Of a stretch of 59,594 nt of DNA, positions 9,104 to 38,590 are shown in pieces. Where the stretch lies: the NCBI GenBank assembly GCA_030682655.1, contig JAUXNU010000174.1, positions 1 through 59,594 on the forward strand. The letters run 5' to 3'. The stretch comes from Actinomycetota bacterium. Its GTDB lineage: Bacteria > Actinomycetota > Coriobacteriia > Anaerosomatales > JAUXNU01. The stretch's first letter is position 1. Each line of letters starts with the position of its first letter. The position numbers and the translations under genes were made by a program. The notes beneath the pieces are model-generated. The model made no database searches and was not told where the DNA came from. It worked only from the letters and a program-made list of their open reading frames with translations.

Positions 9104-9244
9104 CTCGAATGGCGCAAGGTATGGGGTCTCCAGTGTCGGAGTCGTTCCATCGGCTGTGCAGTACGTGCCGTTGACGGTTGAGCTGGCGTCAAGCGCGCTC
9201 AGTGTGACCAGGACGTTGTTCTTGACCCAGTTGGGGGAGATGTT
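7205..9244 (-). repeat. Alternating Ig-like repeats (two types)
   Basis: From the frameshift at 9245 down to about 7205 the protein alternates two Ig-like repeat types, each starting at a PPVTT/APVTT junction. Type A contains WxxxxVxVxLxAxD, FYSTNG, YxAPFTVxAEGxxxxKYYSVDxRGN. Type B contains YxGxAxIxLxxTDxxSGV, YKLDGGxW and HTLYYYSxDxAGNxE. Four type A repeats (the first spans the frameshift) and four type B repeats are here. A fifth A copy and three more B copies lie between the WTGTKN modules further down. This tandem organisation could favour slippage or recombination. Confidence 0.7.
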
Positions 9245-10298
9245 GGAAAGTCGTTACCGGCGGCACCGTGTCCGGGGCTGCGGGATTCAGCTTGAGCTTC
9301 TGGACGCGGTCGTTGAGGGTATCTGCGACGTATAGGTTCCCGTCAGAGTCGATTGCCAGGTCCTCGGGCGATTTGAACTGTCCGGGGCCGCTACCGTACG
9401 TTCCGACGGTGTCAACATACGCAAGGTTGCTGTCGAACCGCACGATTCTGGAATTCTGTGTGTCAGCAACGTAGACCGTACCATCTGAGTCGATTGCGAG
9501 GCCCTGCGGGCCGTCGAACGAGTCGGAGTTGCCGAACGTGTCGACCGTGGCAATCGGAGCTCCACCTGAAGTGCTGTACTTGTAGAGCTTGTGATAGAGG
9601 GCGTCCACAACGTAGAGGTAGCCATCCGGTCCAATCTGAATACCATCCGGCCAGGCAGGCGCGGTGTTGGGAGAAGGTATGGGCAGATTCCAGTACAGAT
9701 CCTGGTAGGTCCCGCTCGAGGAGTAGACCTGGATGCGGCCATTGTCCGAGTCCGAGACGTAGATGTTGTCGCTCGCATCAACAGCGACATCCAGCGGGCA
9801 GCCGAACTCGTACCCACCTGTTCCTTCGCCGTAGGATCCGAACGTGGAATCGAACGTCCCGTCTGCTGCAAGAATCATGATGCGGTCGTTCCAGGAGTCC
9901 GCGACGACTATCCGCCCCGTGGAATCGACGGCCATGCCTGCCGGCCAGATGAACTGCGGAGGAGTGGTTGAGCTGCCCGCAGTACCGTAGACGGCAGTGG
10001 GCGTGCTTGTACTGACAGCAAGGTCGTACTTGGCGATTCCGTCTAGAACGGATTCGTAGGGCTCGGCTGTGACGGCGTAGTCGGTCTCCGTGACCAGGAG
10101 GGTGTCGTCGTCGGCAAGGACGAGAGCTTCGGGATAGCCCTCTCTACCAGCTGCTATGTCCGCTTCCCACGAGTAGCTGTCGGCTGCGGACGGGAAGATG
10201 GCCGTCGCGGGTACTGGTGCGAGCAGTGCCGACTGAGCCACAACAAGCATTCCAAGGAGGAAGCTTGTCCATCGCAGACGCCTCTTGCAGAACAACAC
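9189..10298 (-). CDS. NHL-repeat beta-propeller with signal peptide, N-terminal part of the giant surface protein
   Basis: The best start is GTG at 10298, behind GGAGGTG six bases upstream; a GTG at 10361 would give a longer frame without such a site. An N-terminal RRLRW charge cluster, a hydrophobic stretch and APVPATA make a signal peptide, so the product is exported. At least five NHL blades follow, each of the form GLAIDSDGTVYVADTQNSRI. The frame ends out of register after PDTVPPVTT, the usual opening of the Ig-like repeats that continue in the next frame. Removing one C of the TTCC on the minus strand (GG at 9245-9246) gives PPVTTFNISPNWVKNN and a continuous protein of about 2014 residues. 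The gene is transcribed divergently from the TagA-type glycosyltransferase. Confidence 0.8.
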   Translation of the reverse strand: MLFCKRRLRWTSFLLGMLVVAQSALLAPVPATAIFPSAADSYSWEADIAAGREGYPEALVLADDDTLLVTETDYAVTAEPYESVLDGIAKYDLAVSTSTPTAVYGTAGSSTTPPQFIWPAGMAVDSTGRIVVADSWNDRIMILAADGTFDSTFGSYGEGTGGYEFGCPLDVAVDASDNIYVSDSDNGRIQVYSSSGTYQDLYWNLPIPSPNTAPAWPDGIQIGPDGYLYVVDALYHKLYKYSTSGGAPIATVDTFGNSDSFDGPQGLAIDSDGTVYVADTQNSRIVRFDSNLAYVDTVGTYGSGPGQFKSPEDLAIDSDGNLYVADTLNDRVQKLKLNPAAPDTVPPVTTFQHLPQLGQEQRPGHTERA

Positions 10299-10316
10299 TC
10301 TGGTCACCTCCGTCAG

Positions 10317-10375
10317 GTCGCTCTCCCGAAGAGCGACACGACCGCATACGCCACGAGACACGAAAAAGCGTGTCT
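10317..10375 (-). promoter_or_regulatory. Leader with two hairpins before the NHL/Ig surface gene
   Basis: Two stem-loops lie just upstream of the ribosome-binding site: GTCGCTC/GAGCGAC (10317-10323 with 10331-10337) and AGACACG/CGTGTCT (10356-10362 with 10369-10375, loop of six). The first ends about 10 bases before the GGAGG motif, so it could affect ribosome access. No known riboswitch consensus was recognised. Confidence 0.4.
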
Positions 10376-19714: not shown

Positions 19715-20080
19715 ATGGAGGGGACTTCGACGCAAAGCGTCCTGTTCGTACTAGGCCTCGCCACGGCGGGCGTCGGGTTCATCGCCCTCGTCTTCTTTCT
19801 GAACTACATTCTGTCTCCCTCGAAGCCTTCAGCCGAAAAGGACGAGCCCTACGAATGTGGCATGGAGCCGATTGGTGGCCCCTGGGAGTCAGTCAGGCTC
19901 AGGTTCGCTGCCATCGCGATCCTCTTCGTAGTGTTCGACGCCGAAGCGACGCTCATGTTCGCGGTCGCCGGTGGCCTAAGGGGCAACCCGGCTGCCGTCA
20001 TTGAAGTAGGCATCTTCACCGGCCTGCTTGCCTTGGGGCTTGTGTATGCCTGGCGCAAGGGGGCACTCGAGTGGCGCTAG
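19715..20080 (+). CDS. nuoA: NADH-quinone oxidoreductase subunit A
   Basis: This 121-residue membrane protein has three helices and the NuoA loop KDEPYECGMEPIGGPWESVR with its conserved Glu-Cys-Gly. It continues RFAAIAILFVVFDAEATLMF, which carries the functional FDxE motif. It is a proton-pumping arm subunit at the junction with the quinone site. The ATG at 19715 follows a GGGGG ribosome site. It is the first gene of the complex I operon and overlaps nuoB by 10 bp. Confidence 0.95.
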   Translation: MEGTSTQSVLFVLGLATAGVGFIALVFFLNYILSPSKPSAEKDEPYECGMEPIGGPWESVRLRFAAIAILFVVFDAEATLMFAVAGGLRGNPAAVIEVGIFTGLLALGLVYAWRKGALEWR

Positions 20081-20658
20081 CAGATCGCGTCGGCGATAGG
20101 CTCGAACGCAACCCAAGCGGCATCATCCTCACCTCGCTCGATGCTCTGATCGACTGGGGGCGGGGGCATTCGCTGTGGGCGATGCCTATGGGTACGGCCT
20201 GTTGCGCGATGGAACTCATAGCCGCATCCTTCAACAAGTTCGACTTCGACCGCCATGGGACATTTCCTCGGCCGGATCCGCGACACACCGACGTTATGGT
20301 CGTCGCGGGAACGGTCACGCGGAAGATGGCACCCGCGGTGAAGAGGCTCTACGAGCAGATGCCCGAACCCAAGTGGGTCATCGCGATGGGAAACTGCGCG
20401 GTCTCCGGAGGAATCTTCTACTACGACTCGTACTCCGTGATTCGTGGTGTGGACGAGTTTCTGCCTGTCGACGTGTACATCGCGGGATGCCCGCCAAGAC
20501 CTGAGGCCTTGCAGGACGCGGTCCTGCGCCTGCGAGAGAAGATCGAGACGGAATCAATCGCCCCCGGTGTTCGTCGCGAGGGCCGATTCACGCTTCCAAT
20601 GCCCGGCGACGTGTCCTTCGGGACGCGTCCGGGCGTCGAGGAGGCTGACGAGTCGTGA
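20071..20658 (+). CDS. nuoB: NADH-quinone oxidoreductase subunit B (cluster N2)
   Basis: This 195-residue subunit holds the terminal [4Fe-4S] cluster N2 beside the quinone. The four ligands are visible: the tandem Cys44-Cys45 in GTACCAMEL, Cys109 in IAMGNCAVSGG and Cys140 in YIAGCPPRPEAL. RPDPRHTDVMVVAGTVTRKMAP is also characteristic. GTG 20071 is the start, overlapping nuoA. All cluster ligands are kept, so this is a genuine electron-transferring complex I. Confidence 0.96.
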   Translation: MALADRVGDRLERNPSGIILTSLDALIDWGRGHSLWAMPMGTACCAMELIAASFNKFDFDRHGTFPRPDPRHTDVMVVAGTVTRKMAPAVKRLYEQMPEPKWVIAMGNCAVSGGIFYYDSYSVIRGVDEFLPVDVYIAGCPPRPEALQDAVLRLREKIETESIAPGVRREGRFTLPMPGDVSFGTRPGVEEADES

Positions 20659-21116
20659 ACATCAACGAGCTAAGAGAGCACCTGTGTGCCGAGTACCCGG
20701 AACTGTGTCCGCTGTTCTCCATCGAATTCGGCGATGGTGTGCTCACGGTCGAATGCGATCTGGTGTTCAAGGCGGCAGGTGACTTGAAGGACCTCGGGTT
20801 CGACCGCTTGGGGATGGTCACTGCCGTGGACCACGGCGAAAGCTTCGAGATGGTGTATCGCCTTACATCGCGTTCGATGTCGGCCGGCATCTTCCTGAAG
20901 TGCCATGTACCGCGATCCAACCCGGTGACCGCTTCTCTGGTGCCGCTTTGGCCCGCTGCATTGTGGCAGGAGCGGGAGGTCTTTGACCTGTTCGGAATCC
21001 ATTTCGAAGGGCACCCGGACTTGCGAAGGATCTTTCTGCCCGAGGACTGGGTGGGTCACCCGCTTCGCAAAGACTACGTCGACGACCGCATGATCAAACG
21101 GCCTGACTACATCTAG
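20655..21116 (+). CDS. nuoC: NADH-quinone oxidoreductase subunit C (30 kDa)
   Basis: This 153-residue peripheral-arm subunit starts 4 bp inside nuoB. It carries LGFDRLGMVTAVDHGESFEMVYRLTS in the fold core and the family signature WPAALWQEREVFDLFGIHFEGHPDLRRIFLPEDW, followed by HPLRKDY. It contacts NuoB and NuoD and bears no cofactor. It is separate from nuoD, not fused as in enterobacteria. Confidence 0.95.
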   Translation: MNINELREHLCAEYPELCPLFSIEFGDGVLTVECDLVFKAAGDLKDLGFDRLGMVTAVDHGESFEMVYRLTSRSMSAGIFLKCHVPRSNPVTASLVPLWPAALWQEREVFDLFGIHFEGHPDLRRIFLPEDWVGHPLRKDYVDDRMIKRPDYI

Positions 21117-21148: not shown

Positions 21149-22288
21149 GTGTATGAGGTGACCAACACACGGTACTCGACCGAGGACGGAACCCCGGTCG
21201 GGGAGTTGGTAGTCAACATCGGCCCGTCCCACCCCTCCACTCACGGTGTCTGCCGCGTGATCGCCCACCTGGACGGCGAGGTCGTTACGAAAGCCGAGCC
21301 TGTCATCGGGTACCTCCATCGCGGTATCGAGAAGATGTGCGAGAACCGCACGTATGCGCAGATCGTGCCGCTGACCGACCGTCTCGATTACGTAGGCTCC
21401 ATGTACGCCAACTGGGCGTACTGCCGGGCTGTCGAACGGCTCGCGGGGATTCGCGTTCCAGAGCGGGCTGAGTACCTGCGTGTGATCGTATGCGAACTCC
21501 AGCGCATCGCGAGCCACATGATGGCGGTTGGATCATCGGCTGCGGACACCGGCGCGGCCACCGTGTTCATCTACGCGTTCGACGAGCGCGAGCGTATCAT
21601 CGAGCTCTTCGAGGAGCTGTGTGGCGCGCGACTGACCTACAGCTACGTGCGGCCCGGAGGCGTGAGCTTCGACCTTCCCGAGGGTTGGGTCGACACGCTT
21701 CTTGAGTTCACGCGTGCGCATCCGGCAGCGGTCGCCGAGATGGACAAGCTCTTCTTTGGCAACGTGATCCTGCGTGGCCGGATGAAGGGCATAGGCGTTC
21801 TCTCCGCCGAGGACGCGGTCGCATGGGGCGCGTCGGGTCCTGTGGCGCGCGGCTCGGGCGTGAACTGGGACCTTCGCAAGCATGACCCCTACTCGGTCTA
21901 TCCGCTCTTCGAGTTCGATGTCCCCACCGGATCGGCTGGCGACGCGTATGACCGTGCGCGCGTGCGCCTGTACGAGTGCTACGAGTCGTGCAAGATCATC
22001 GAGCAGGCAGTCGAGCAGATGACCAGCGGGCCGGTCATGGCCGAGGGCCTGCCGCGTCTGCTCGCACCGCGGCCCGGCGAAGCGTACGACCACATCGAGA
22101 GCGCCCGTGGTTCTCTCGGCGTCTTCATCGTCTCCGACGGGAGTCCCCGTCCGTACCGGGTGAAGTTCAGGTCCCCCGCATTCTGCAATCTGGCCCTGCT
22201 ACCGCAGCTCGCCGAGGGCCACTTGTTGTCCGATCTCGTCGTCATCCTCGGCAGCCTCGACCCGGTGTTCGGGGAGGTGGACCGGTGA
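21149..22288 (+). CDS. nuoD: NADH-quinone oxidoreductase subunit D (49 kDa)
   Basis: This 379-residue quinone-site subunit has GPSHPSTHGVCRVIAHLDGE with the quinone-ligating histidine, then IGYLHRGIEKMCENRTYAQ, PLTDRLDYVGSM and the C-terminal DPVFGEVDR. The nickel-binding CxxC pairs of [NiFe]-hydrogenase large subunits are absent at both ends, so this is complex I and not a membrane hydrogenase. GTG at 21149 follows GAGAGGGGG and lies 32 bp after nuoC. Confidence 0.95.
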   Translation: MYEVTNTRYSTEDGTPVGELVVNIGPSHPSTHGVCRVIAHLDGEVVTKAEPVIGYLHRGIEKMCENRTYAQIVPLTDRLDYVGSMYANWAYCRAVERLAGIRVPERAEYLRVIVCELQRIASHMMAVGSSAADTGAATVFIYAFDERERIIELFEELCGARLTYSYVRPGGVSFDLPEGWVDTLLEFTRAHPAAVAEMDKLFFGNVILRGRMKGIGVLSAEDAVAWGASGPVARGSGVNWDLRKHDPYSVYPLFEFDVPTGSAGDAYDRARVRLYECYESCKIIEQAVEQMTSGPVMAEGLPRLLAPRPGEAYDHIESARGSLGVFIVSDGSPRPYRVKFRSPAFCNLALLPQLAEGHLLSDLVVILGSLDPVFGEVDR

Positions 22289-23235
22289 CAGGCTACCTTG
22301 GCGGAGTCGTGTTCGGCCTGGCCAGCGGTGTGCTGATTGCCATAGCGACGATTCTGGGCGTCTACGGCGAACGCAAGGTGGCGGCCTGGATCCAGATGCG
22401 TATCGGTCCTCAGGAGACCGGACCCGCGGGATCGCTTCAGCTCATTGCCGACCTGCTGAAGTTGCTGCTCAAAGAGGACATAACCCCGCGGCGTGCCGAC
22501 GTGCGTCCGTTCAGGCTCGCTCCGTTCCTGGTGTTCGCTCCCGTTGCGATGGCGGTCGTGGTGATCCCGTTCGCGCGTGGGTGGGCGCCGCTGGACACGT
22601 CGGTCGGGATGCTGTTCTTCCTCGCTGTCCCGTCCCTGTCTGTCCTTGGGGTGCTGGTTGCCGGCTGGTCGTCGGGCAACACCTACGCCACCATCGGCGG
22701 GCTACGCGGCGCGGCTCAGATGATCTCCTACGAACTGCCAAGGACGCTTTCAGTCCTTAGCATCGTTGTGCTCGCGGGATCGCTGCGTCCAGTGGACGTG
22801 GTCAATGCCTGGCGTTGGTGGTGGATCCCGCTCAACGCTATCGGGTTTCTCGTCTACTACATCGCATCGATCGCCGAGTGCAATCGTGGACCTTTCGACA
22901 TTCCGGAGGCGGAGTCCGAGCTGGTGGCGGGCTACTTCGCCGACTACTCGGGCATCCGCTGGGGCATCTTCATGATGACCGAGTACGGCACCGTTCTGTC
23001 GGCGTCTCTGTTCGCCGCAGCCATCTACCTGGGGACGCTCTCGTGGCTACCGAGCTGGCTGGGCATCCCGCTCTTCGTTGCGGTGACGATCCTCCTTGGC
23101 ATGTCGATGATCTGGGTGAAGTGGACCTTCCCGCGCATGCGCTCTGACCAGCTGATGGCGGTCGCATGGAAGGTTCTGACGCCGATGGCTCTCCTGCAGC
23201 TTGCGATCGTGGGGGTGGTGATCGCGTGGCTGTAG
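22285..23235 (+). CDS. nuoH: NADH-quinone oxidoreductase subunit H
   Basis: The start GTG 22285 overlaps the nuoD stop by 4 bp, giving 316 residues and eight or nine membrane helices. Conserved parts are YGERKVAAWIQMRIGPQETG, LQLIADLLKLLLKEDITP, the amphipathic quinone-chamber loop, RGAAQMISYELPRTLS and AECNRGPFDIPEAESELVAGY, with the Glu/Asp residues of the E-channel, and WVKWTFPRMRSDQLM. It forms the quinone chamber roof and the link to the pump modules. Confidence 0.96.
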   Translation: MTGYLGGVVFGLASGVLIAIATILGVYGERKVAAWIQMRIGPQETGPAGSLQLIADLLKLLLKEDITPRRADVRPFRLAPFLVFAPVAMAVVVIPFARGWAPLDTSVGMLFFLAVPSLSVLGVLVAGWSSGNTYATIGGLRGAAQMISYELPRTLSVLSIVVLAGSLRPVDVVNAWRWWWIPLNAIGFLVYYIASIAECNRGPFDIPEAESELVAGYFADYSGIRWGIFMMTEYGTVLSASLFAAAIYLGTLSWLPSWLGIPLFVAVTILLGMSMIWVKWTFPRMRSDQLMAVAWKVLTPMALLQLAIVGVVIAWL

Positions 23236-25307
23236 ACAACGAGTCTGGCGAAGTGGAAGTACAGGCAGTGAAGGACGTTCCGACATCGGTGCCGCTGACG
23301 GTCACCGTGACCGATGACTTCTCACCCGGGGTCACGGGCTTCCTGGAAAAATGGCGCTCGCTGCTGGTCGGCCTGAGCATCACCGGCCGCCGTGCCATGG
23401 AGAAGAACACGACGCTGCGCTACCCGGCCGAGAAGGTCACGATATCGCAGCGCTGGCGTGGGGCGTTGCGACTGAGGGGTCTACTCGGACGCGACGAGGT
23501 GCCGATTCTCCTCGGACCATCGCCGGAGTACAACGCGAGCATCCAGGACCTCTACGACGGGGATCGGCTGCCGCCATGTGTGGGGAACTGCCCTGCGAAC
23601 GTCGATGTCCGCGGGCAGAACTACTACGTGGCCGAGGGCAAGACAGTTGAAGCATATGAGCTCGTCAGGCGCCGTAACATCATGCCGGGCGTTCTTGGCA
23701 GGATCTGCCACAACCCGTGCGAGACGGCCTGCCGTCGCAACTTCTACGACGAGCCGATCTCGATTCGTCCGCTGCACCGTGTCACGTACGAGGAGTATGT
23801 GAAGGTTCAAGACGAGCACCTGAGACCGTTCGAGGTTACGAGGGATGAGACCGTCGCCATCATCGGATCGGGTCCATCCGGTCTCGCGGCCGCATTTGAC
23901 CTGATGAGCCTCGGGTATCGGGTCACGGCGTACGAGAAGGAGGAGAAGCCCGGCGGCGCGCTGTATTCCGGTGTGCCGTCGTATCGACTCCCTCGCGAAG
24001 TCCTGCACGGTGAGATCGACAATCTGGTGAAGCTCGGCCTCGACCTGCGGCTCGGCGTCGAAGTCGGTCGCGATATCCCTACGGATCACCTCATTGGCGA
24101 ATACAATGCCGTTCTCATCGCCGCCGGTCTGCAGCAGAGCCGCATACTGCCGATCCCCGGAAACGACGGCGACGGCGTCATCGGTGCACTGGAGTTCCTG
24201 CGCGCCGCGAACTGGAAGGGCGACGCCGGCGTGAAGAACAAGCGCGTGCTCGTGATCGGTGGCGGAAACGTCGCGGTCGACGTAGCACGATGCGCGCTTC
24301 GCCTCGGGGCTTCCGAGGTACGACTTGCATGTCTAGAGGGCGATGACGAGATGCCCTGCCATCCCTGGGAGATTGAAGAGGCAATCGACGAGGGCGTCAT
24401 CGCCATGTGCGGTCTTGGCCCGGAGGAAGTGCTGGTCGAGAACGGCAAGGTCATCGGCATGCGCATGCGCGAGTGCCTTTCCGTGTTCGACGAGAGCGGC
24501 CGCTTCTCACCCAAGTTCAGCGATGAGTTGACGGACCTGGCACTGGATGTCGTCTGTTTCGCAATCGGCCAGGCGCCGGTCCTGCGCGAAGTGGTCGCGG
24601 GGACGGACCTCGCGCTCGAAGAACGCGGACTGCTTCCCGTGGACGGAACGTTGTTCACGACGGCGATGCCCATGGTCTTTGCATGTGGCGAGGTCGTCAC
24701 CGGCCCCGGCAGCGCCATTGGCTCGATAGCGACAGGACATGAGGCCGCGACTTCCATCCACCGATACCTCTCCGGCCAGGATCTTGCCGAGGGCAGAGTC
24801 GCGCGGCCTGTCCCCATCTACGACAAGTACGCCGTGGCCTCGGTCGACGGCGTGGAGGAGGCCAGGCGTCGCGTGGAGATGCCGATGGCCCGCCCCGAGG
24901 AACGCTCTCGCGACTTCCGCCAGGTCGAGCTTGGCCTGACCCACCTGGAAGGGCTGAACGAGGCAGCACGCTGTCTGCGATGTCAGTCGGAAGTGTGCGT
25001 CGGATGCACCTTCTGTGCCCGAACATGCCCCGACTACGCGATACAGGTCGAACGCGTCGACGATCCCGGCGATCGACGAGTGACGCGATACGATCTCGAT
25101 CTGGCGAAGTGCTGCTTCTGTGGGCTGTGCGCCGAGCAGTGTCCCACCGATGCACTGAGCCACACCGGGCAGTACGAGCTGTCCTTCTACCACCGAGACC
25201 TCACCTTCTTCGACAGAGATGAGATGCTTCGCTCCGGTGAAGGCACCCGCGCTACCGGCCGCGATGGTGAGCATGGCCCGCGTTCCTCCGGGGGTGACAA
25301 GTCATGA
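23226..25307 (+). CDS. Fusion: NuoI N-terminus + GltD/NfnB-type FAD-NAD(P) oxidoreductase + NuoI 2[4Fe-4S] ferredoxin
   Basis: GTG 23226 is the start (10-bp overlap with nuoH; 693 residues). Residues about 36-83 are a NuoI N-terminus (TGFLEKWRSLLVGLSITGRR, YPAEK, SQRWRGALRL). Residues about 105-200 are a Fer4_20-like domain with Cys118, Cys122, Cys161, Cys165 and Cys169; the usual preceding RCxxC pair is absent. Residues about 207-520 hold the FAD site IIGSGPSGLAAA, the NAD(P) site VIGGGNVAVDVAR and the closing FACGEVVTGPGSAIGS. Residues 581-670 return to NuoI: RCLRC, then CVGCTFCARTCP and, after RYDLDLAK, CCFCGLCAEQCPTDA. It stands exactly where nuoI belongs, and nuoE, F and G are missing. 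I infer that it feeds electrons from NAD(P)H via FAD and iron-sulfur clusters to NuoB. A mis-joined assembly is unlikely because one frame runs throughout. Confidence 0.9.
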   Translation: MAVDNESGEVEVQAVKDVPTSVPLTVTVTDDFSPGVTGFLEKWRSLLVGLSITGRRAMEKNTTLRYPAEKVTISQRWRGALRLRGLLGRDEVPILLGPSPEYNASIQDLYDGDRLPPCVGNCPANVDVRGQNYYVAEGKTVEAYELVRRRNIMPGVLGRICHNPCETACRRNFYDEPISIRPLHRVTYEEYVKVQDEHLRPFEVTRDETVAIIGSGPSGLAAAFDLMSLGYRVTAYEKEEKPGGALYSGVPSYRLPREVLHGEIDNLVKLGLDLRLGVEVGRDIPTDHLIGEYNAVLIAAGLQQSRILPIPGNDGDGVIGALEFLRAANWKGDAGVKNKRVLVIGGGNVAVDVARCALRLGASEVRLACLEGDDEMPCHPWEIEEAIDEGVIAMCGLGPEEVLVENGKVIGMRMRECLSVFDESGRFSPKFSDELTDLALDVVCFAIGQAPVLREVVAGTDLALEERGLLPVDGTLFTTAMPMVFACGEVVTGPGSAIGSIATGHEAATSIHRYLSGQDLAEGRVARPVPIYDKYAVASVDGVEEARRRVEMPMARPEERSRDFRQVELGLTHLEGLNEAARCLRCQSEVCVGCTFCARTCPDYAIQVERVDDPGDRRVTRYDLDLAKCCFCGLCAEQCPTDALSHTGQYELSFYHRDLTFFDRDEMLRSGEGTRATGRDGEHGPRSSGGDKS

Positions 25308-25804
25308 CGTTTGACACTGCCACCGCGGTTCAGGCGGCTTTGGCCATAGCCGCGCTCCTGGGCGCATCCACCGTGGTCTTCGCCAAAGACGTTACGCGCA
25401 TGGCGGCGGGGCTGGGTCTGTTTCTGCTCTGTGTGGCCGGTTGGTTCGCGTATCTGAGTGCGTCGTTCCTGGCAGTCGCACAGGTGTTCGTCTACGTCGG
25501 CGGCGTGCTGATCCTGTTCATCTTCGCGATCATGCTGCTTCACCGGGAAGACCAGGAGAAGCCGGGCCTGACCTCCCGCCACGACATTGGCTCTGTTTCG
25601 GTGGCGCTGGCCGTGTTCGTGTTGACTTTCATGCCGCTGATCGGGGTCGCCTCGGCGGTTGGACCTGTGCGCGACACCGGCGCCATGCCGGATCTGGCCG
25701 CCATTCTGACAGGGCCGATGCTGCCCCAGTTCGAGGCGGTGGGCGTGCTTCTGCTTGCCGCTTTGGTCGCGGTCGTAGTCGTGATGGGGGGTGAGCGCGA
25801 ATGA
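25304..25804 (+). CDS. nuoJ: NADH-quinone oxidoreductase subunit J
   Basis: This 166-residue protein has five membrane helices. The conserved third helix region reads AVAQVFVYVGGVLILFIFAIML, containing the pi-bulge helix that gates proton movement near the quinone end. It overlaps the fusion gene by 4 bp (ATGA) and nuoK by 4 bp. Confidence 0.94.
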   Translation: MTFDTATAVQAALAIAALLGASTVVFAKDVTRMAAGLGLFLLCVAGWFAYLSASFLAVAQVFVYVGGVLILFIFAIMLLHREDQEKPGLTSRHDIGSVSVALAVFVLTFMPLIGVASAVGPVRDTGAMPDLAAILTGPMLPQFEAVGVLLLAALVAVVVVMGGERE

Positions 25805-26112
25805 TCCTCATCTTCATGAGTTGCGCGATCTTCGCGCTCGGTCTGTACGGGGTACTCACGCGGCGCGACCTCATCGGCGTGCTGGCTTGCGTGGAGCTCG
25901 TTCTTGGGTCGGCGACGGTGCTTCTTGTTGGCCTGGCGACGACCGTTGTCGCCCCTTCGGGTGGCCCGGTTCCCGGCGTTGTCGAGGGGGTCGGCTTGTT
26001 CGTCATCGCGCTTGCGGCTGCTGAGGCGGCGGTCGGACTTGCGCTCGTCGTGTGCGTCGCGCGACGCGTCGGCACAACGCGCTCGGACGAACTCACGGAG
26101 GTGAAGGGATGA
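25801..26112 (+). CDS. nuoK: NADH-quinone oxidoreductase subunit K
   Basis: This 103-residue protein has three membrane helices. It carries LIGVLACVELVLGSATVLLV with the buried helix-2 glutamate, and FVIALAAAEAAVGLALVV with the helix-3 glutamate, both central to proton transfer. The ATG overlaps nuoJ, and the stop overlaps nuoL. Confidence 0.95.
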   Translation: MILIFMSCAIFALGLYGVLTRRDLIGVLACVELVLGSATVLLVGLATTVVAPSGGPVPGVVEGVGLFVIALAAAEAAVGLALVVCVARRVGTTRSDELTEVKG

Positions 26113-27965
26113 TACCTTCCGTGTTCGCCGACAACGCCTGGCTGGTGTTCGTGGTGCCGGTTGTTGTCGCAGCCCTCGTGGGTGTACTCGGTTCCCGGAT
26201 GAAGGCCAGCGCGCCGTGGATAGCCATGGTGTCGCCGGTGCTCGTCATGGTCTATGGGGTCGGCGGCATGGCCCGAATCCTGTCGGAGGGTACGCCAAAG
26301 CCCTTCATGGAGTCCTCGGTCTTCGCCGACAGTGTCGCCTGGATCCCCGCGGGTGAGTCCGCTCTCCACGTGGGATGGGCATTTGACGGGCTGACATGCG
26401 TGATGCTCACCGTCGTGGGGCTCGTTGCTCTAATGGTCATGATCTTCTCGATCGGGTACATGCACGGCGAGGACGGACTTCCCAGATACTTCGCGTTGCT
26501 TTCGCTGTTCACGGGTGCGATGACTTTACTCGTCGTTGCGGACGGTCTCGTTGGACTGTTCGTAGGGTGGGAGCTTGTGGGCGCCTGCTCGTACCTGCTG
26601 ATCGGCTTCTGGTTCCATAAGCCTTCAGCCGCTGCCGCCGCAGTCAAAGCGTTCCTGACCACCCGTGTCGGCGACGTGGGGCTGTTGCTCGGACTGGCGC
26701 TGCTCTGGCGGGAGACGGGCGCGCTGAGCTACGAGGCGGTCTTTGCGAACATCGACATGTTGACGCCGACGCTTGTCACAGCAGTAGCGGTGCTTCTCTT
26801 CATCGGTGCTGCCGGGAAGTCGGCTCAGTTCCCGCTCCATATCTGGTTGCCGGACGCCATGGAGGGCCCAACTCCTGTTTCAGCGCTCATACACGCCGCG
26901 ACTATGGTCGCAGCAGGCGTCTTCCTGGTCGCGCGCACCTGGCCTGTGTTCGAAGCATCCGAGCCTGCGCGCATGATAGTGCTGGCGATAGGTGCGTTCA
27001 CGGCGCTTGGAGCCGCCACTATCGCGGTCGCGCAGACCGACATCAAGAAGGTGCTCGCGTACTCGACGATCAGCCAGCTCGGCTTCATGTTCGCGGCTCT
27101 GGGCGCCGGCGCTTGGGTGGCGGCGGTCTTCCACCTCGTGACCCACGCCGGCTTCAAGGCCTTGCTCTTCCTAGGTTCAGGGAGTGTGATTCACGGTTCG
27201 GGAACGCAGGACATGCGCCAGATGGGCGGGTTGGCGAAGAAGATGCCGGTCACGGCCGCCACCTGGGTGGCCGGTTCTGCGGCGCTCGCCGGTGTCCCGC
27301 TCTTGTCCGGGTTCTTCAGCAAGGACGAAGTCCTTCACGCCGTATGGAGTTCAAACACCATAGCCGGGGCTGCGCTGTTCGCCGCGAGCGCACTGACGGC
27401 GTTCTACATCACGCGTGCGACGAGACTCACCTTCTTCGGCGAATACAGGGGCGACGGGCATCCACATGAAGGCGGCTGGCAGATGCGTCTGCCTCTCATC
27501 GTCCTTGCCGTGCCGGCGGTTGCGGCGGGCTTCCTGGGCGGGAACATCGCAAAGCTTCTGGGTGAGCACGGGGAGGCGCTCGATCCGGTGACGGCGGCGA
27601 TCTCGGGGACGATTGCCCTGGTGTCCATCGCGTTTGCCTGGTACGTGTTCCGTGGGGGAGCCATCTCCGACATCGATCTCGAAGAGCGAATGTCGTCACT
27701 CTGGACCGTGCTCAGGAACGGGTACGGGTACGACGGCTTCGTGGGACGTACGATCGTCGAGCCGACGCAGCGCGTTTCGGGCGCGCTGTACCGCGCTGTC
27801 GACCGCGTGGTCGTGGACGGTGTGGCCGAGGGTGTCGGAGGCCTGGCGCGGAGCGTCGGGCGCGTGCTCACTCTGCTGCAGAACGGTGACGGCCAGTGGT
27901 ATGCCGCGCTTCTGGGCGCGGGCGCCGCGATGCTCGTGGCGCTTATGTACTGGGTGGGGAGGTGA
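26109..27965 (+). CDS. nuoL: NADH-quinone oxidoreductase subunit L (antiporter-like)
   Basis: ATG 26109 overlaps nuoK by 4 bp and gives 618 residues with about 16 helices. Signature segments are VGWELVGACSYLLIGFWFH (helix 5 glutamate), KSAQFPLHIWLPDAMEGPTP (helix 7 lysine and discontinuous helix), ALIHAATMVAAGVFL, DIKKVLAYSTISQLGFMF and LTHAGFKALLFLGSGSVIHG. The C-terminal lateral helix that spans NuoM and NuoN is present. It is the distal proton pump. Confidence 0.95.
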   Translation: MIPSVFADNAWLVFVVPVVVAALVGVLGSRMKASAPWIAMVSPVLVMVYGVGGMARILSEGTPKPFMESSVFADSVAWIPAGESALHVGWAFDGLTCVMLTVVGLVALMVMIFSIGYMHGEDGLPRYFALLSLFTGAMTLLVVADGLVGLFVGWELVGACSYLLIGFWFHKPSAAAAAVKAFLTTRVGDVGLLLGLALLWRETGALSYEAVFANIDMLTPTLVTAVAVLLFIGAAGKSAQFPLHIWLPDAMEGPTPVSALIHAATMVAAGVFLVARTWPVFEASEPARMIVLAIGAFTALGAATIAVAQTDIKKVLAYSTISQLGFMFAALGAGAWVAAVFHLVTHAGFKALLFLGSGSVIHGSGTQDMRQMGGLAKKMPVTAATWVAGSAALAGVPLLSGFFSKDEVLHAVWSSNTIAGAALFAASALTAFYITRATRLTFFGEYRGDGHPHEGGWQMRLPLIVLAVPAVAAGFLGGNIAKLLGEHGEALDPVTAAISGTIALVSIAFAWYVFRGGAISDIDLEERMSSLWTVLRNGYGYDGFVGRTIVEPTQRVSGALYRAVDRVVVDGVAEGVGGLARSVGRVLTLLQNGDGQWYAALLGAGAAMLVALMYWVGR

Positions 27966-29404
27966 TGGGGATGACCGCAGTCGACCTGCTCGTGCTTCTC
28001 CCCATCGCGGCGGCGATCGTCGCGGCCTTCTCGGGACGTCATGCGCGCGTTGTGGCTCTCCTCGGCACGCTGGCGACGGCCACCACGCTAGTGACCCTCT
28101 CTGGATCCGGCGTTTTCGGTGGAGCCGAGGTCAGAGGCGCGATAGTGCTCGAGCGGTTCGTTCCCTTCTGGGCGATGAAGCTCGACGGGTTGTCGACGCC
28201 GCTTGTCGCTTTGACCGCGTTCCTCTCGATCGTCGCGGTACTCGCATCCTGGAACGTCAAAGACCGGCCGGCGGCACATCATGCGCTGCTCATCGCGCTT
28301 GAGGCTGCAGTGATGGGTGTCTTCCTTGCCGAGGACATCATCCTTTTCTATGTCTTCTGGGAGGCTGTCCTGATACCGATGTACTTCCTTATCGGAATCT
28401 GGGGCCACGAGAACCGCAAACATGCCGCACAGAAATTCTTCATCTACACCTTCCTTGGCAGCGCGCTCATGCTCGCCGGGATACTTGTTGCAGTGACATC
28501 GGCACAGGCGCAGCGGATTCCCGATCTCGTGGGCGCGAATGCGACGTTCCCCGCGACCCTCGTGTTCTGGCTTCTTCTCGCCGGGATGCTCGTGAAAGTG
28601 CCGGTCGTGCCGCTGCATACCTGGCTGCCTGACGCACATGTCGAAGCACCGACAGCAGGGTCGATCATGCTTGCGGGAGTGCTGCTCAAGATGGGCGGTT
28701 ATGGCCTGATGCGAGTGGCGATTCCCTTCGCCCCGTCTGCGTACGAGGCTTCTCGCACGGTGCTGGTGGCGCTGGGAATCATCGGAATCGTCTATGGCGC
28801 TGCGATGGCGCTCGCCCAGAGCGACTTGAAACGACTCGTGGCCTTCTCGTCCGTTGCTCACATGGGATTCGTCGTTCTGGCGATCGGCTCGGGAACGCCC
28901 GCTGCATATGGCGCTGCCATGCTCGGCATGGTTAGTCACGGGGTGGTTGCCGGTCTGCTGTTCCTGCTGGTGGGACTGCTCTACGAGAGAACCCACACGA
29001 GAGAGATCGACCGTTTCGGAGGCATGGGCCGTTTGATCCCACGCTGGGCCGCCGTGCTGACGTTCGGAGCGCTGGCGAGCCTTGGGTTGCCGGGCCTCTC
29101 CGGATTCCCCGGGGAGTTCGGAGCGATTCTTGAAGGGTACCGCGCGGTGGGTTGGTGGATCGCCCCTGCGACTGTCGGTCTCGTGCTTTCTGCCGCATAC
29201 AACCTACGGGCCGTCGGCAGCGTCAATCATGGCCCCGTTGCCGAGGAGTGGCGCGGCATGAACGACCTGAACCCCACCGAGTGGATTCCCGTGAGCATCC
29301 TATGTGTCGCCATCCTTGTGCTCGGTGTGTGGCCGCGAGCCGTGCTCGATATCTCGCAGGTCGCACTCAAGCTCCTTGCACCTATCGTGGGCGGGGGAGT
29401 GTAG
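27965..29404 (+). CDS. nuoM: NADH-quinone oxidoreductase subunit M (antiporter-like)
   Basis: The start is ATG 27965 (TGATG junction with nuoL); ATG 27971 is better spaced from GGAGG and would be two residues shorter. About 479 residues and 14 helices. Motifs are FYVFWEAVLIPMYFLIGIWG with the helix-5 glutamate, KVPVVPLHTWLPDAHVEAPT, AGVLLKMGGYGLMR and DLKRLVAFSSVAHMGFV. It is a proton pump of the membrane arm. Confidence 0.95.
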   Translation: MGMTAVDLLVLLPIAAAIVAAFSGRHARVVALLGTLATATTLVTLSGSGVFGGAEVRGAIVLERFVPFWAMKLDGLSTPLVALTAFLSIVAVLASWNVKDRPAAHHALLIALEAAVMGVFLAEDIILFYVFWEAVLIPMYFLIGIWGHENRKHAAQKFFIYTFLGSALMLAGILVAVTSAQAQRIPDLVGANATFPATLVFWLLLAGMLVKVPVVPLHTWLPDAHVEAPTAGSIMLAGVLLKMGGYGLMRVAIPFAPSAYEASRTVLVALGIIGIVYGAAMALAQSDLKRLVAFSSVAHMGFVVLAIGSGTPAAYGAAMLGMVSHGVVAGLLFLLVGLLYERTHTREIDRFGGMGRLIPRWAAVLTFGALASLGLPGLSGFPGEFGAILEGYRAVGWWIAPATVGLVLSAAYNLRAVGSVNHGPVAEEWRGMNDLNPTEWIPVSILCVAILVLGVWPRAVLDISQVALKLLAPIVGGGV

Positions 29405-29407
29405 CCG

Positions 29408-30859
29408 ATGAGCCAGGAGCTGCAACTGTTGCTGCCCATCCTGCTCGCCGTCGGTGCGGGAATCGCCGCGATGGTCGTCGACGCAGTGGGCTCGCGGAAA
29501 GGTGCGACCGCGGTGGCTGCTGCTCTGCTCGCAGCGGCTACCGCCGTTGCGGTGTGGGAGGCTTTGACTCTGGAGGCTGGCGGGATACAGGGCGTCATCC
29601 TTGGCGGTTCAACGTATGCAGCCGTGCAGTCCGTCATCCTGTTCTGCGCTACGTGCGCGGTCATAGGCGGATGGACGTATTTCGTTGAGCGCCGGATGGG
29701 TGCTGGTGCGGTGGCGCTGATGGCATTCTCTGCAGCGGCGTGCGCTGCACTTGCTTCCTCGATCGACCTCTTCATGACGCTGATCGCGATGGAGACGATC
29801 GCGATCTGTGCGTATGCGTTGGTGGCCTCAGCCGGATCGTCGAGATCAGCCGAGGCGGGGATGAAGTATCTCATCCAGGGTGCAGTGGCCACCGGGCTGT
29901 TCCTAATGGGTGCCGCGATCGTGTTTGGGCTGCACGGCGGCCAGTCTTCGTACGTTGCCCTAAGTCAGATCGTCGGCGGGGCCCTCTTCTGGCCGGCGGC
30001 CACATCGATGGGCCTCATTCTGGCCGCTATCGCGTTCAAGATGGGCGCGTTTCCGTTCCATTCCTGGGCGCCGGATGCTTTCGAGGCCGCCCCTCCTGCA
30101 GCCAGTTCGTTCATGGCCGGCGCGCCGAAGCTAGGAGCGGTGCTCGCAGCGCTTCTGATCTTCGGCACCGTATACGCTGATCCGGGCTTCATCGAGCGCA
30201 TCGAGGTGCTGTGGATCGTGCTCGCCGTCGCGTCGATCGCCTTCGGCAACCTGTCAGGGTTGCGACAGACTTCCTACGGGAGGATGTTGGCGTACTCCGG
30301 CATAGCGCAGATCGGGTACGCGCTTGTCGGGTTGTCCCTCGGCGGTCCTGCGGTCTACCAGACGCTGGTGCTGGCTTCTGCATACGCGGTTGCCGTTCTC
30401 GGAGCGTTCCTTGCGGCGGAGGCCATTCGTGTCGTGCGGCCTGGATGGGACGGGTCCATATCCGGCATGGCGGGAATAGCCCGCGACTATCCGGGTCTTG
30501 CAGTTGCGTTGGCCGCAGTGATGTTCTCGTTGACCGGCATTCCGTTGACCGTTGGCTTCTGGGGCAAGCTGCTCGTCTTTGTTGCTGCCGTTGCGGCAGG
30601 GAAGACCTGGCTCGTCGTCGTCGCTGTGGTAGGGTCGGTGGTCTCGTTCGGGTACTACGGCGGAGTACTGCGGGCGGTGTTCTTCGACGATCGGTCTGAG
30701 ACGCCAGATGTCGATGATGACGAGGCCGGACAGGTGAGATCACGATCCCGCGCCGCGCGTGCGATGGTCATCGCCGTGGCGGCTTGCGTGGTCGCAGCAG
30801 GGGTCGTGCCGCTGTTCGTAGGACTGGGCTTCATGCAGAGCTTCTTCGGGTTCGCCTGA
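29408..30859 (+). CDS. nuoN: NADH-quinone oxidoreductase subunit N (antiporter-like)
   Basis: This 483-residue protein starts ATG 29408 behind GGGGGAG. It has FMTLIAMETIAICAYALVAS, with Glu in helix 5, AGMKYLIQGAVATGLFLMG with lysine, FKMGAFPFHSWAPDAFEAAP and SYGRMLAYSGIAQIGYALVG. It is the third antiporter-like pump and the last gene of the operon. No nuoE, nuoF or nuoG follows; the next genes belong to other functions. Confidence 0.94.
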   Translation: MSQELQLLLPILLAVGAGIAAMVVDAVGSRKGATAVAAALLAAATAVAVWEALTLEAGGIQGVILGGSTYAAVQSVILFCATCAVIGGWTYFVERRMGAGAVALMAFSAAACAALASSIDLFMTLIAMETIAICAYALVASAGSSRSAEAGMKYLIQGAVATGLFLMGAAIVFGLHGGQSSYVALSQIVGGALFWPAATSMGLILAAIAFKMGAFPFHSWAPDAFEAAPPAASSFMAGAPKLGAVLAALLIFGTVYADPGFIERIEVLWIVLAVASIAFGNLSGLRQTSYGRMLAYSGIAQIGYALVGLSLGGPAVYQTLVLASAYAVAVLGAFLAAEAIRVVRPGWDGSISGMAGIARDYPGLAVALAAVMFSLTGIPLTVGFWGKLLVFVAAVAAGKTWLVVVAVVGSVVSFGYYGGVLRAVFFDDRSETPDVDDDEAGQVRSRSRAARAMVIAVAACVVAAGVVPLFVGLGFMQSFFGFA

Positions 30860-35959: not shown

Positions 35960-38590
35960 GTGCAGATCGTCGTCGGACATGCGAACCCCGACTTCGACGC
36001 CTACGCCGCGACGGTGGCGGCTACGAAGGTGTTTCCCGGTGCCCGGGGAGTGTACCTTGGCTCGCAAAATGCCAATGTCCGGGCCTTCCACAACCTGCAC
36101 GAGGAGTTCCTCGACTTCGTGGATCTGAGGGGGCTGGACCTCTCTGCGGTGACACGGCTGGTGATGGTCGACACGCGAGACGCCAGTCGAATCGGTGAGA
36201 TCGGGTCCGTGGCCTTGCGGCCTGATGTCGAGGTCATCGTCTACGATCATCACCCTCCGGCGGAGGGTGATCTCACCGGCGTCGACGACCGGTCTCTCGA
36301 TGTCGGATCGACGACATCGATACTGGTCCACGAGATCAACCGTCGGGGTATCGCGCTGACGCCGCTCGAGGCGTCCGTGCTTCTCCTTGGCATACACGAG
36401 GACACGGGATCGCTCACGTACCCGGGGGCGACCGCGTACGATGCCGAGGCTGCTGCATACCTGATGGCTTCGGGGGCCGATATGGAGGTCCTGAACCAGT
36501 TTCTGAGCCGGGCGCTTGATAGTGCCCAGCAAGAACTGCTCGAGCGGCTCGTTGGGTCGCTCGAGATTTGGAGCATCCACGGTCAGGAGATCGCGATCGG
36601 CGTTGCCGAGGCCGACCAGTATGTGGACTCTGCGAGCGTGCTGACGCACTACATCGTTGAGGACATGGGCTACCGCGTAGCGATAGCCGTCGTGCGGATG
36701 CCGACGCGTGTCCAGGTCGTGGCCAGGAGCCGCGTCCATGGCGTGGATGTCGGTGCGGTCATGACGCGGATCGGTGGGGGCGGACATACGCAGGCGGCTT
36801 CTGCCGGCTTCCGGGACATAGAGATCCAGGAATTGCTCGACCGCATTGCGCGCGCCCTAGACGCGGAAGTCCGGCAGCCGCTCACGGCGCGCGACATCGC
36901 GTCTTCTCCCGTGCGGACGGTGACACCCGGTGCCAGCATGCACGATGCGGGTGAACTGATGGCGAGGTGGGGACACGGCGGGCTGCCGGTCGTCGAAGAT
37001 GGCACGCTCGCCGGTCTCGTGACGCGCAAGGACGTGGACAAGGCGGTGCGCCACCAGCTCGACCATGCGCCGGTCACCGGGTTCATGGCTCGCGACGTCA
37101 TTACTGTATCGCCCGGCACCGACTTGATCACGCTCGAGCACCTTCTAGCTAGCCAAGGAATCGGTCGCTTGCCGGTTGTGGAGGACCAGCGGATCGTGGG
37201 AATCGTGACCCGAAAGGACCTCCTGAGCGCCGAATTCGGCGACAAGTACCTCGACCGCAGGGTCCCCCAGGCGCGCGGGCGCTCAACCCAGCGGTTCCTG
37301 TCCTCGGTCGAGTCTCTCCTGCCCGAGGAGGCCTACGCAGCCCTGCACGATCTTGGAGCGCTGGCCGAGGAGGAGGGCTTGCGGCTGCATGTGGTGGGCG
37401 GATTCGTGCGCGACATGCTCCTTGGCAGGAAGAACCTCGACATGGATGTCGTGGTCGAAGGTGACGGGGTGGCGTTCGCGGAGAAGGCCGCGCAGACCCT
37501 CGGGGGGCGGGTGAAGGTGCACCGGCGGTTCGGGACGGCGGTCCTCGTGCTGAGCAAGACCCTTCACGTGGACATCACGAGCGCACGGACCGAGTACTAC
37601 ACGCGCCCCGGAGCCTTGCCGACGGTGGAGAGGTCGTCTCTTAGGCAGGACCTGTTCCGCCGCGACTTCTCCGTGAATGCGATGGCTGCCTGCCTCAATC
37701 CCGATTGCTTCGGCCAGATCGCCGATCCGTTCGGCGGACTGCGCGATCTGGAGCGGCAGACGCTGCGTGTGCTGCATTCGCTCTCGTTCGTCGAGGACCC
37801 CACACGGGTGCTCCGCGGCGCGAGGTTCGAGAGGCGCTACGGCTTTTCGATGGACTCTTCGACCGAAGCGCTTGCACGTCGCGCCGTCGAGATGAACATG
37901 CTCGACGAGGTCAGCGGTGCACGTCTGCGCGAGGAGATGCTCGACATCATAGACGAGGACGCACCATCCGAGGTGTTCGAGCGGTTGCGGGAGCTGGGCG
38001 TCCTGGATGTCCTGCTTCCCGAGGGTGTCAGTTCGTCCGCTGTCATCGAGGGCCTGTTCGCTGTCGAGCGTGCATACAAGCGGTTGAGCCCGATGTTTGG
38101 CCGGGAGCCCCGCAGACGTGTGACGCTTGTGGCCGCCCTGTTGGCCGGCGCCGGACATGGACCTGCGGAGCGCTGGCTGCGTCACATGCGGTTTGGTCGC
38201 GAGTATGGCGAGCCTGCGATCGCGCTCGCGGAACGGGGGCCTGCGACCGTGCGGCGACTTCGCGATGGCCGCGGTATGCGTGACAGCCGCCTGTACCATC
38301 TGCTCTCGACGGTGCCGGACGAGGCGGTCGTCTGGGTGTGGGCCACAGGAGGCACGCTGGTCCGCGAGCGAGTCGAGCACTATGTCGACGTCGTGTCGCG
38401 CATCAAGCCCGAAGTCTCAGGCAAAGACCTCATCGAGATGGGACTGACTCCGTCAGCGCGCTTCTCGGCTATACTTGCGCAGGCCCTTGACGACCGGCTG
38501 GATGGCAAGGCGGTCGGGCGCGAGGCCGAGAGAGCAAACCTGCAGCGTCTCGTCACGAAACACGAGCGCATCACTGCCAAGGAGAACTGA
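35960..38590 (+). CDS. DHH phosphoesterase - CBS pair - poly(A) polymerase/CCA-adding enzyme fusion
   Basis: This 876-residue protein starts at GTG 35960 behind GGAGC. Residues 1-about 300 are a DHH/DHHA1 phosphoesterase: VVGHANPDFDAYA, YDHHPPAEGD near 95 and GGGGHTQAASAGF near 270. Two CBS domains follow (about 313-430: GGLPVVEDGTLAGLVTRKDV and IGRLPVVEDQRIVGIVTRKD), probably nucleotide-sensing. The C-terminal half is a class II nucleotidyltransferase: GGFVRDMLLGRKNLDMDVVV with the DxD catalytic pair near 480, RRDFSVNAMAACL, and FVEDPTRVLRGARFERRYGF. It probably adds the A or CCA end of tRNA, or trims and adds with the DHH half. This domain order is known in several deep-branching bacteria. 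Confidence 0.9.
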   Translation: MQIVVGHANPDFDAYAATVAATKVFPGARGVYLGSQNANVRAFHNLHEEFLDFVDLRGLDLSAVTRLVMVDTRDASRIGEIGSVALRPDVEVIVYDHHPPAEGDLTGVDDRSLDVGSTTSILVHEINRRGIALTPLEASVLLLGIHEDTGSLTYPGATAYDAEAAAYLMASGADMEVLNQFLSRALDSAQQELLERLVGSLEIWSIHGQEIAIGVAEADQYVDSASVLTHYIVEDMGYRVAIAVVRMPTRVQVVARSRVHGVDVGAVMTRIGGGGHTQAASAGFRDIEIQELLDRIARALDAEVRQPLTARDIASSPVRTVTPGASMHDAGELMARWGHGGLPVVEDGTLAGLVTRKDVDKAVRHQLDHAPVTGFMARDVITVSPGTDLITLEHLLASQGIGRLPVVEDQRIVGIVTRKDLLSAEFGDKYLDRRVPQARGRSTQRFLSSVESLLPEEAYAALHDLGALAEEEGLRLHVVGGFVRDMLLGRKNLDMDVVVEGDGVAFAEKAAQTLGGRVKVHRRFGTAVLVLSKTLHVDITSARTEYYTRPGALPTVERSSLRQDLFRRDFSVNAMAACLNPDCFGQIADPFGGLRDLERQTLRVLHSLSFVEDPTRVLRGARFERRYGFSMDSSTEALARRAVEMNMLDEVSGARLREEMLDIIDEDAPSEVFERLRELGVLDVLLPEGVSSSAVIEGLFAVERAYKRLSPMFGREPRRRVTLVAALLAGAGHGPAERWLRHMRFGREYGEPAIALAERGPATVRRLRDGRGMRDSRLYHLLSTVPDEAVVWVWATGGTLVRERVEHYVDVVSRIKPEVSGKDLIEMGLTPSARFSAILAQALDDRLDGKAVGREAERANLQRLVTKHERITAKEN

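Follow-up and report, generated by a model that had tools for sequence, protein, structure and literature searches.

Complexes I that lack NuoEFG are widespread, and which donor feeds them is regarded as an open question; in earlier work, according to PMC11238625, the search for a shared donor protein failed. One locus of this kind, from Parvivirga hydrogeniphila, was published as NuoACDHJKLM without NuoI; NuoEFG were missing, and donors such as ferredoxin were suggested (PMC9686372). In the protein StnC, a GltD domain is inserted in a NuoG-like protein, and electrons follow a linear path from reduced nicotinamide adenine dinucleotide phosphate (NADPH) over flavin adenine dinucleotide (FAD) to the clusters, without bifurcation (PMC10482914). 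Here we analyze a nuo operon on a 59,594-nucleotide stretch of DNA (the window; contig JAUXNU010000174.1, assembly GCA_030682655.1) from an actinomycetotal bacterium of the order Anaerosomatales (OPB41), class Coriobacteriia. Its NuoI is interrupted just ahead of the first iron-sulfur motif by a complete flavoprotein of the GltD/NfnB/StnC type, a fusion that is undescribed in the open-access literature searched.

The fusion is encoded by a single open frame of 693 residues on the forward strand (window 23226-25307), which runs from a GTG at 23226 to a stop codon ending at 25307. An alternative in-frame ATG at 23166 would extend the protein to 713 residues, but overlaps nuoH. The frame begins within the 3' end of nuoH (22285-23235) and ends within the start of nuoJ (25304-25804), in the exact slot of nuoI. 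Pfam assigns Fer4_20 to residues 116-190, Pyr_redox_2 to 209-504 and a 2[4Fe-4S] domain to 591-643, and NCBIfam places the GltD-like PRK12771 at 113-645 (430 bits, under the cut-off of 516) and NuoI at 580-673 (98 bits). The protein has the Fer4_20 domain and the FAD and NAD(P) Rossmann domains of the GltD/NfnB/StnC type.

The NuoI model TIGR01971 matches in two pieces, its positions 1-42 at 23370-23495 and 40-121 at 24984-25226, and so NuoI is cut at one point; the same two-piece match, before and after the flavoprotein, is found in other genomes. With a model made from six plain NuoI sequences, the N-terminal piece of all 48 fusions scored above every scored shuffle (median 19.3 bits and minimum 9.5, against 3.4 for the best shuffle). 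The middle part of the 48 fusions gave no match to the plain-NuoI model (best 0.2 bits), and NuoI is therefore truly split at a single point. Against plain NuoI the C-terminal half reaches 60.7 bits, and the ferredoxin tail of a GltD-like paralogue of the same genome 27.7. The insert measures approximately 495 residues, hence NuoI is not a stand-alone 2[4Fe-4S] subunit here. A preliminary description of the locus, which had placed a NuoI N-terminal part, a flavoprotein and the 2[4Fe-4S] half of NuoI in one 693-residue frame between nuoH and nuoJ, is borne out on each of these points.

The operon reads nuoABCDH-[fusion]-JKLMN. Genes nuoA, B, C, D, H, J, K, L, M and N are all present, and no nuoE, nuoF or nuoG was found within the operon by Pfam and NCBIfam, as had been claimed. 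At least 95% of the NuoB proteins from 47 fusion operons keep each of the residues C44, C45, C109 and C140, and the His of the STHG motif at the quinone site of NuoD is invariant (47/47). These N2 ligands and the quinone-site His indicate a complex I and not a hydrogenase.

The iron-sulfur ligands of the fusion are arranged differently from those of GltD. In the GltD of the same genome (L012:5163), a CxxC pair lies near the N terminus in the motif DF.EV.LG...EA..EA.RCL.C; the GltD-like domain of the fusion has no such pair for the distal cluster at its N terminus, and the same motif appears at residues 560-586, downstream of the FAD domain, with the cysteines C583 and C586. The pair is invariant in the wider family, and among the fusions C583 is kept in 47 of 48 and C586 in all 48. 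It is also kept in homologues that end shortly after it and carry no ferredoxin (L084, L109, L122, L125, L141 and L147). The pair is hence a feature of the GltD-like domain that has changed its place. Fifteen cluster cysteines, namely five of Fer4_20, the CxxC pair and eight of the NuoI half, are invariant in the 48 fusions save for one C583S.

Alignment with NfnB, whose cluster ligands are listed in PMC7596348, assigns C118 and C169, together with C583/C586, to the distal cluster and C122, C161 and C165 to the proximal cluster. The fourth proximal ligand by alignment is position 184, which is Glu in NfnB and corresponds to K170 of StnC, a cluster ligand in that enzyme (PMC10482914); it is His in 40 and Lys in 8 of the 48 fusions, and never Glu. 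C586 stands exactly four residues before the first NuoI cysteine in 47 of the 47 fusions scored, a constant spacing that would hold the GltD and NuoI cluster chains together. With this ligand set, C583/C586 included, four [4Fe-4S] clusters are expected per fusion. The cluster set is thus probably complete; the first CxxC is not missing, as had been proposed earlier, but relocated, and a reduced set is unlikely.

The nucleotide-binding site suggests two versions of the protein. In NfnB, the phosphate of NADP is bound by a YRR motif in the second Rossmann fold; experiments established that the YRR-bearing DsrL-2 uses NADP(H), as opposed to the NAD(H)-preferring DsrL-1 (PMC7596348). At this position 41 of the 48 fusions carry xLE (x being C, S, M or A; C-L-E in the window protein), and seven, from one family (f22), carry YRR. 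We predict NADH as the substrate of the window protein and its xLE relatives, and NADPH for the YRR family. In the AlphaFold2 model, the predicted local distance difference test (pLDDT) score exceeds 90 over most of the flavoprotein core and is about 90 for the relocated helix (residues 573-587). A Foldseek search with the model ranked StnC first, followed by NfnA, NfnL, GltD and DPD.

The distribution of the fusion, a question raised by the preliminary description, was surveyed in 296 evenly sampled genomes of the phylum and in 69 genomes (40 genera) of the order. In the phylum, 16 genomes gave a strong match, comprising 15 full-length fusions and one split or frameshifted copy (G255). This copy (L044, C124:4698-6544) is divided near the Fer4_20/FAD boundary into two overlapping frames, and is either a frameshift or a natural two-gene form. 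Within the order, 60 of 69 genomes and 38 of 40 genera carry the fusion, two of the 60 matches being incomplete, both in incomplete drafts; the fusion is also found in several other families and lineages of the phylum. Among the carriers are a closed relative (G131) and the cultured type strain P. hydrogeniphila Es71-Z0120T (G164; 68% identity), and the published NuoACDHJKLM locus is most likely the fusion operon, with the fusion unrecognized as NuoI. A scan of named genomes returned at least one true fusion among the matches listed. No relatives of the fusion were found on viral contigs; plasmid matches all had less than 60% identity, and the five listed lacked the NuoI N-terminal segment.

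Of 48 genomes whose operons were inspected in detail, all have the fusion in the nuoI slot but for three with divergent gene order (L037, L038 and L182), where it stands beside B-C-D. In these three, B-C-D-fusion lies on one strand and A-H-J-K with further nuo genes on the other, the fusion staying with the genes of the hydrophilic arm. The flavoprotein domains of the fusions form one clade (48/48, support 0.985), as do the NuoD proteins of the fusion operons (47/47, support 0.83); a single origin of the fusion is indicated. The coordinates of the operon are collected in Table 1.

Table 1. Genes of the fusion operon and segments of the fusion protein (window coordinates).
Feature	Position	Strand	Basis
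nuoA	19715..20080	+	PF00507, 98 bits
nuoB, N2 ligands C44, C45, C109, C140 kept	20071..20658	+	PF01058
nuoC	20655..21116	+	PF00329, 131 bits
nuoD, quinone-site His kept	21149..22288	+	PF00346; TIGR01962 above cut-off
nuoH	22285..23235	+	PF00146, 326 bits
nuoI-flavoprotein fusion, 693 residues	23226..25307	+	Frame, Pfam, NCBIfam, TIGR01971, shuffle test
NuoI N-terminal segment, residues 36-90	23331..23495	+	TIGR01971 1-42 at 23370-23495; shuffle test
Fer4_20 cluster domain, residues 116-190 (C118, C122, C161, C165, C169, H184)	23571..23795	+	PF14691
FAD and NAD(P) double Rossmann domain, residues 209-504	23850..24737	+	PF07992, model pLDDT, closest folds
Nucleotide-specificity triad C369-L370-E371	24330..24338	+	YRR in NADP(H) enzymes
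Relocated GltD helix with CxxC C583/C586, residues 557-586	24894..24983	+	Conservation, modelled helix
NuoI ferredoxin half, residues 587-673, 8 Cys for two [4Fe-4S]	24984..25244	+	NuoI models
nuoJ	25304..25804	+	PF00499
nuoK	25801..26112	+	PF00420
nuoL	26109..27965	+	TIGR01974, 610 bits
nuoM, start approximate	27962..29404	+	TIGR01972, 470 bits
nuoN	29408..30859	+	TIGR01770, 272 bits

Elsewhere in the window, a 1616-residue protein with weak chitobiase-C and carbohydrate-esterase matches (4253-9103, reverse strand) adjoins an NHL-repeat protein (9189-10361), and an 876-residue protein combines DHH/DHHA1, CBS and poly(A) polymerase domains (35960-38590, forward strand).

For cofactor occupancy, the direction of the electrons, nucleotide specificity and coupling to pumping, we infer the following arrangement, which we consider likely. 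The GltD/StnC-type flavoprotein, lodged in NuoI between the membrane-surface segment and the first cluster motif, would act as a built-in electron-input module that oxidizes NADH in this protein, or NADPH in one family of relatives. Single electrons would pass from FAD to the proximal [4Fe-4S] cluster (C122, C161, C165, H184), from there to the distal [4Fe-4S] cluster (C118, C169, C583/C586) and the two NuoI clusters, and on to N2 of NuoB and the quinone, driving the NuoHJKLMN proton pump. The fusion module would thereby stand in for NuoEFG. StnC, in which electrons take a linear path, offers the closest precedent for such a module. This role had been proposed in the preliminary description, and in its favor are the split NuoI, the place of the fusion in the nuoI slot or beside nuoBCD in 48 of the 48 genomes examined and the absence of NuoEFG from G131, which is closed, and from two near relatives, the electron transfer itself being inferred.

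NuoEFG were searched for across whole genomes. The closed G131, the type strain G164 and G185 have no NuoE and no NuoG, and their NuoF matches are only weak, partial and RnfC-like; NuoE and NuoF were likewise not found in G060, G116 and G137. A NuoF-like match at an E-value of 1e-30 is absent from 43 of the 60 order genomes with the fusion, and none of the order's genomes scores above the NuoF cut-off. With regard to the quinone end, the futalosine-type menaquinone gene PF02621 was found in 9 of 12 genomes tested, those of the window and of P. hydrogeniphila included; among the same 12 it was not found in Anaerosoma tenue M08DHBT (G299) or in the fusion genomes G351 and G244.

Several observations weigh against an input module of this kind. 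The genome of the window carries, on contig C50, two NuoE/F/G-like sets beside carbon monoxide dehydrogenase/acetyl-CoA synthase (CODH/ACS) and formate dehydrogenase genes and, on contig C143, a second, separate nuoA-to-nuoN operon with an ordinary nuoI; both might divide the work with the fusion complex. Respiratory quinones were undetected in P. hydrogeniphila and A. tenue (PMC9686372), and the electron acceptor is therefore uncertain. Nine members of the order, A. tenue among them, gave no match to the fusion at the threshold used. The NuoI halves are of low confidence in the AlphaFold2 model because its alignment was limited to sequences from the window and related loci.

The preliminary description had named nuoEFG together with an ordinary nuoI elsewhere in the genome as evidence against its proposal, and counterparts of both are present in this genome, but the nuoI lies in a separate operon and the NuoEFG-like proteins are of another type and absent from relatives that have the fusion. 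The C50 sets encode longer proteins of the HydB/formate-dehydrogenase type in a Wood-Ljungdahl island, and relatives with the fusion lack them. The second plain operon has counterparts in G131, G164, G185, G043 and G250; such cells hence have a second type of complex I besides the fusion complex, which is not always the sole one. Since G131, G164 and G185 have a similar operon, contamination is not needed to explain C143, although the contig may still be a contaminant in this bin. The C143 operon itself (L011, C143:1-11319) has no nuoEFG and is followed by a catalase-like coding sequence. The C50 island (L009/L010, C50:8000-35000) includes a paralogue of the flavoprotein insert, of the PRK12771 type, and a formate dehydrogenase gene interrupted by a single in-frame TGA that likely encodes selenocysteine. 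Rnf genes (L008, C45:80000-99000) lie next to a gene set for an NAD(P)H-dependent NiFe hydrogenase/sulfhydrogenase.

An artefact of assembly or binning, or a chance read-through of two genes, has next to no probability: the window comes from a draft of 221 contigs with 4.6% contamination, but the fusion recurs with constant junction spacing in 60 of 69 order members, a closed genome and an isolate genome. These independent genomes rule it out, and the earlier caveat of a mis-joined assembly falls with it. The main rival is reverse operation, in which the fusion would mainly reduce NAD(P)+, either with electrons from quinol, driven by the proton motive force, or with electrons of ferredoxin that enter at NuoI, and supply NAD(P)H for autotrophic carbon fixation. 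The parts list is identical for both directions, the isolates use H2 or formate for growth and have genes for CO2 fixation (PMC9686372), and in DsrL, close enzymes of the GltD type can run either way, the NAD type being able to favor NAD+ reduction (PMC7596348). Most fusions, however, carry the NADH-type triad, whereas biosynthesis would more often use NADP, and Rnf, which can co-occur (RnfC in the genome of the window, RnfC-like matches in G131 and G164), could make NADH from ferredoxin. We regard mainly reverse operation as rather unlikely.

It is improbable that ferredoxin is the physiological donor and that the flavoprotein part of the fusion serves as an alternative docking site or as a redox sensor. 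Alternatives such as reduced ferredoxin were proposed for P. hydrogeniphila in view of the missing NuoEFG (PMC9686372), and ferredoxin donation has been described in cyanobacteria (cited in PMC11238625). The published reading, however, probably overlooked the fusion, one locus being given as eight subunits without NuoI. The FAD, nucleotide and cluster motifs are all conserved over deep divergence, which would be needless in a vestigial or sensor domain, and a plain 11-subunit complex I, encoded separately in several of these genomes, could be the one that uses ferredoxin. A bifurcating flavin, sending one electron of NAD(P)H through NuoI to the quinone with pumping and the other via the distal cluster to ferredoxin, is very improbable; it would combine flavin bifurcation and complex I in a single membrane complex.

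If the fusion does feed complex I from NAD(P)H, the complex has its likely donor module covalently built in; the sequence reveals what this module is, and a cultured type strain allows it to be tested. The fusion would represent a second means of coupling a nucleotide dehydrogenase to the core of complex I, in predicted NADH and NADPH versions, and the published picture of energy metabolism in Anaerosomatales would change.

A comparison with the 14-subunit complex I reveals shared Q and P modules and quinone-site residues, and in both a nucleotide dehydrogenase is expected to feed NuoI. By contrast, the fusion operon has no flavin mononucleotide (FMN)-binding NuoF, NuoE or NuoG, and the FAD domain within NuoI is of unrelated fold. 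The 11-subunit complex I of the Desulfitobacterium type and the cyanobacterial NDH-1 share the composition NuoABCDHJKLMN, the lack of NuoEFG, and N2 with two NuoI clusters; their NuoI is a small, plain ferredoxin-like protein whose donor is unknown or ferredoxin, whereas here NuoI has its own FAD/NAD(P) domain.

Among flavoproteins, the NfnB/NfnL, GltD, DPD and DsrL enzymes share the Fer4_20-FAD-NAD(P) fold and the YRR rule for NADP(H). NfnB and GltD differ in their N-terminal CxxC. NfnB also has a Glu ligand where the fusion has residue 184, and its partner is NfnA, which was not found in the fusion operon, to which that search was confined. The nearest sequence group of the insert is formed by PRK12771-type GltD-like flavoproteins with a C-terminal ferredoxin, which have the same relocated CxxC but no NuoI N-terminal segment, another spacing and another ferredoxin tail; the paralogue of this type in the same genome lies in the Wood-Ljungdahl island and not in the nuo operon. 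The best match in both sequence and fold is StnC of the Stn/NfnABC transhydrogenase (PDB 8oh5, 9bov and 9n5u), likewise a GltD-type insert in a Nuo-type iron-sulfur subunit, with a CxxC after the FAD domain and K170 aligned with position 184 of the fusion. In StnC, however, the insert resides in a NuoG-like protein and not in NuoI, the partners are StnAB, and there is no membrane pump.

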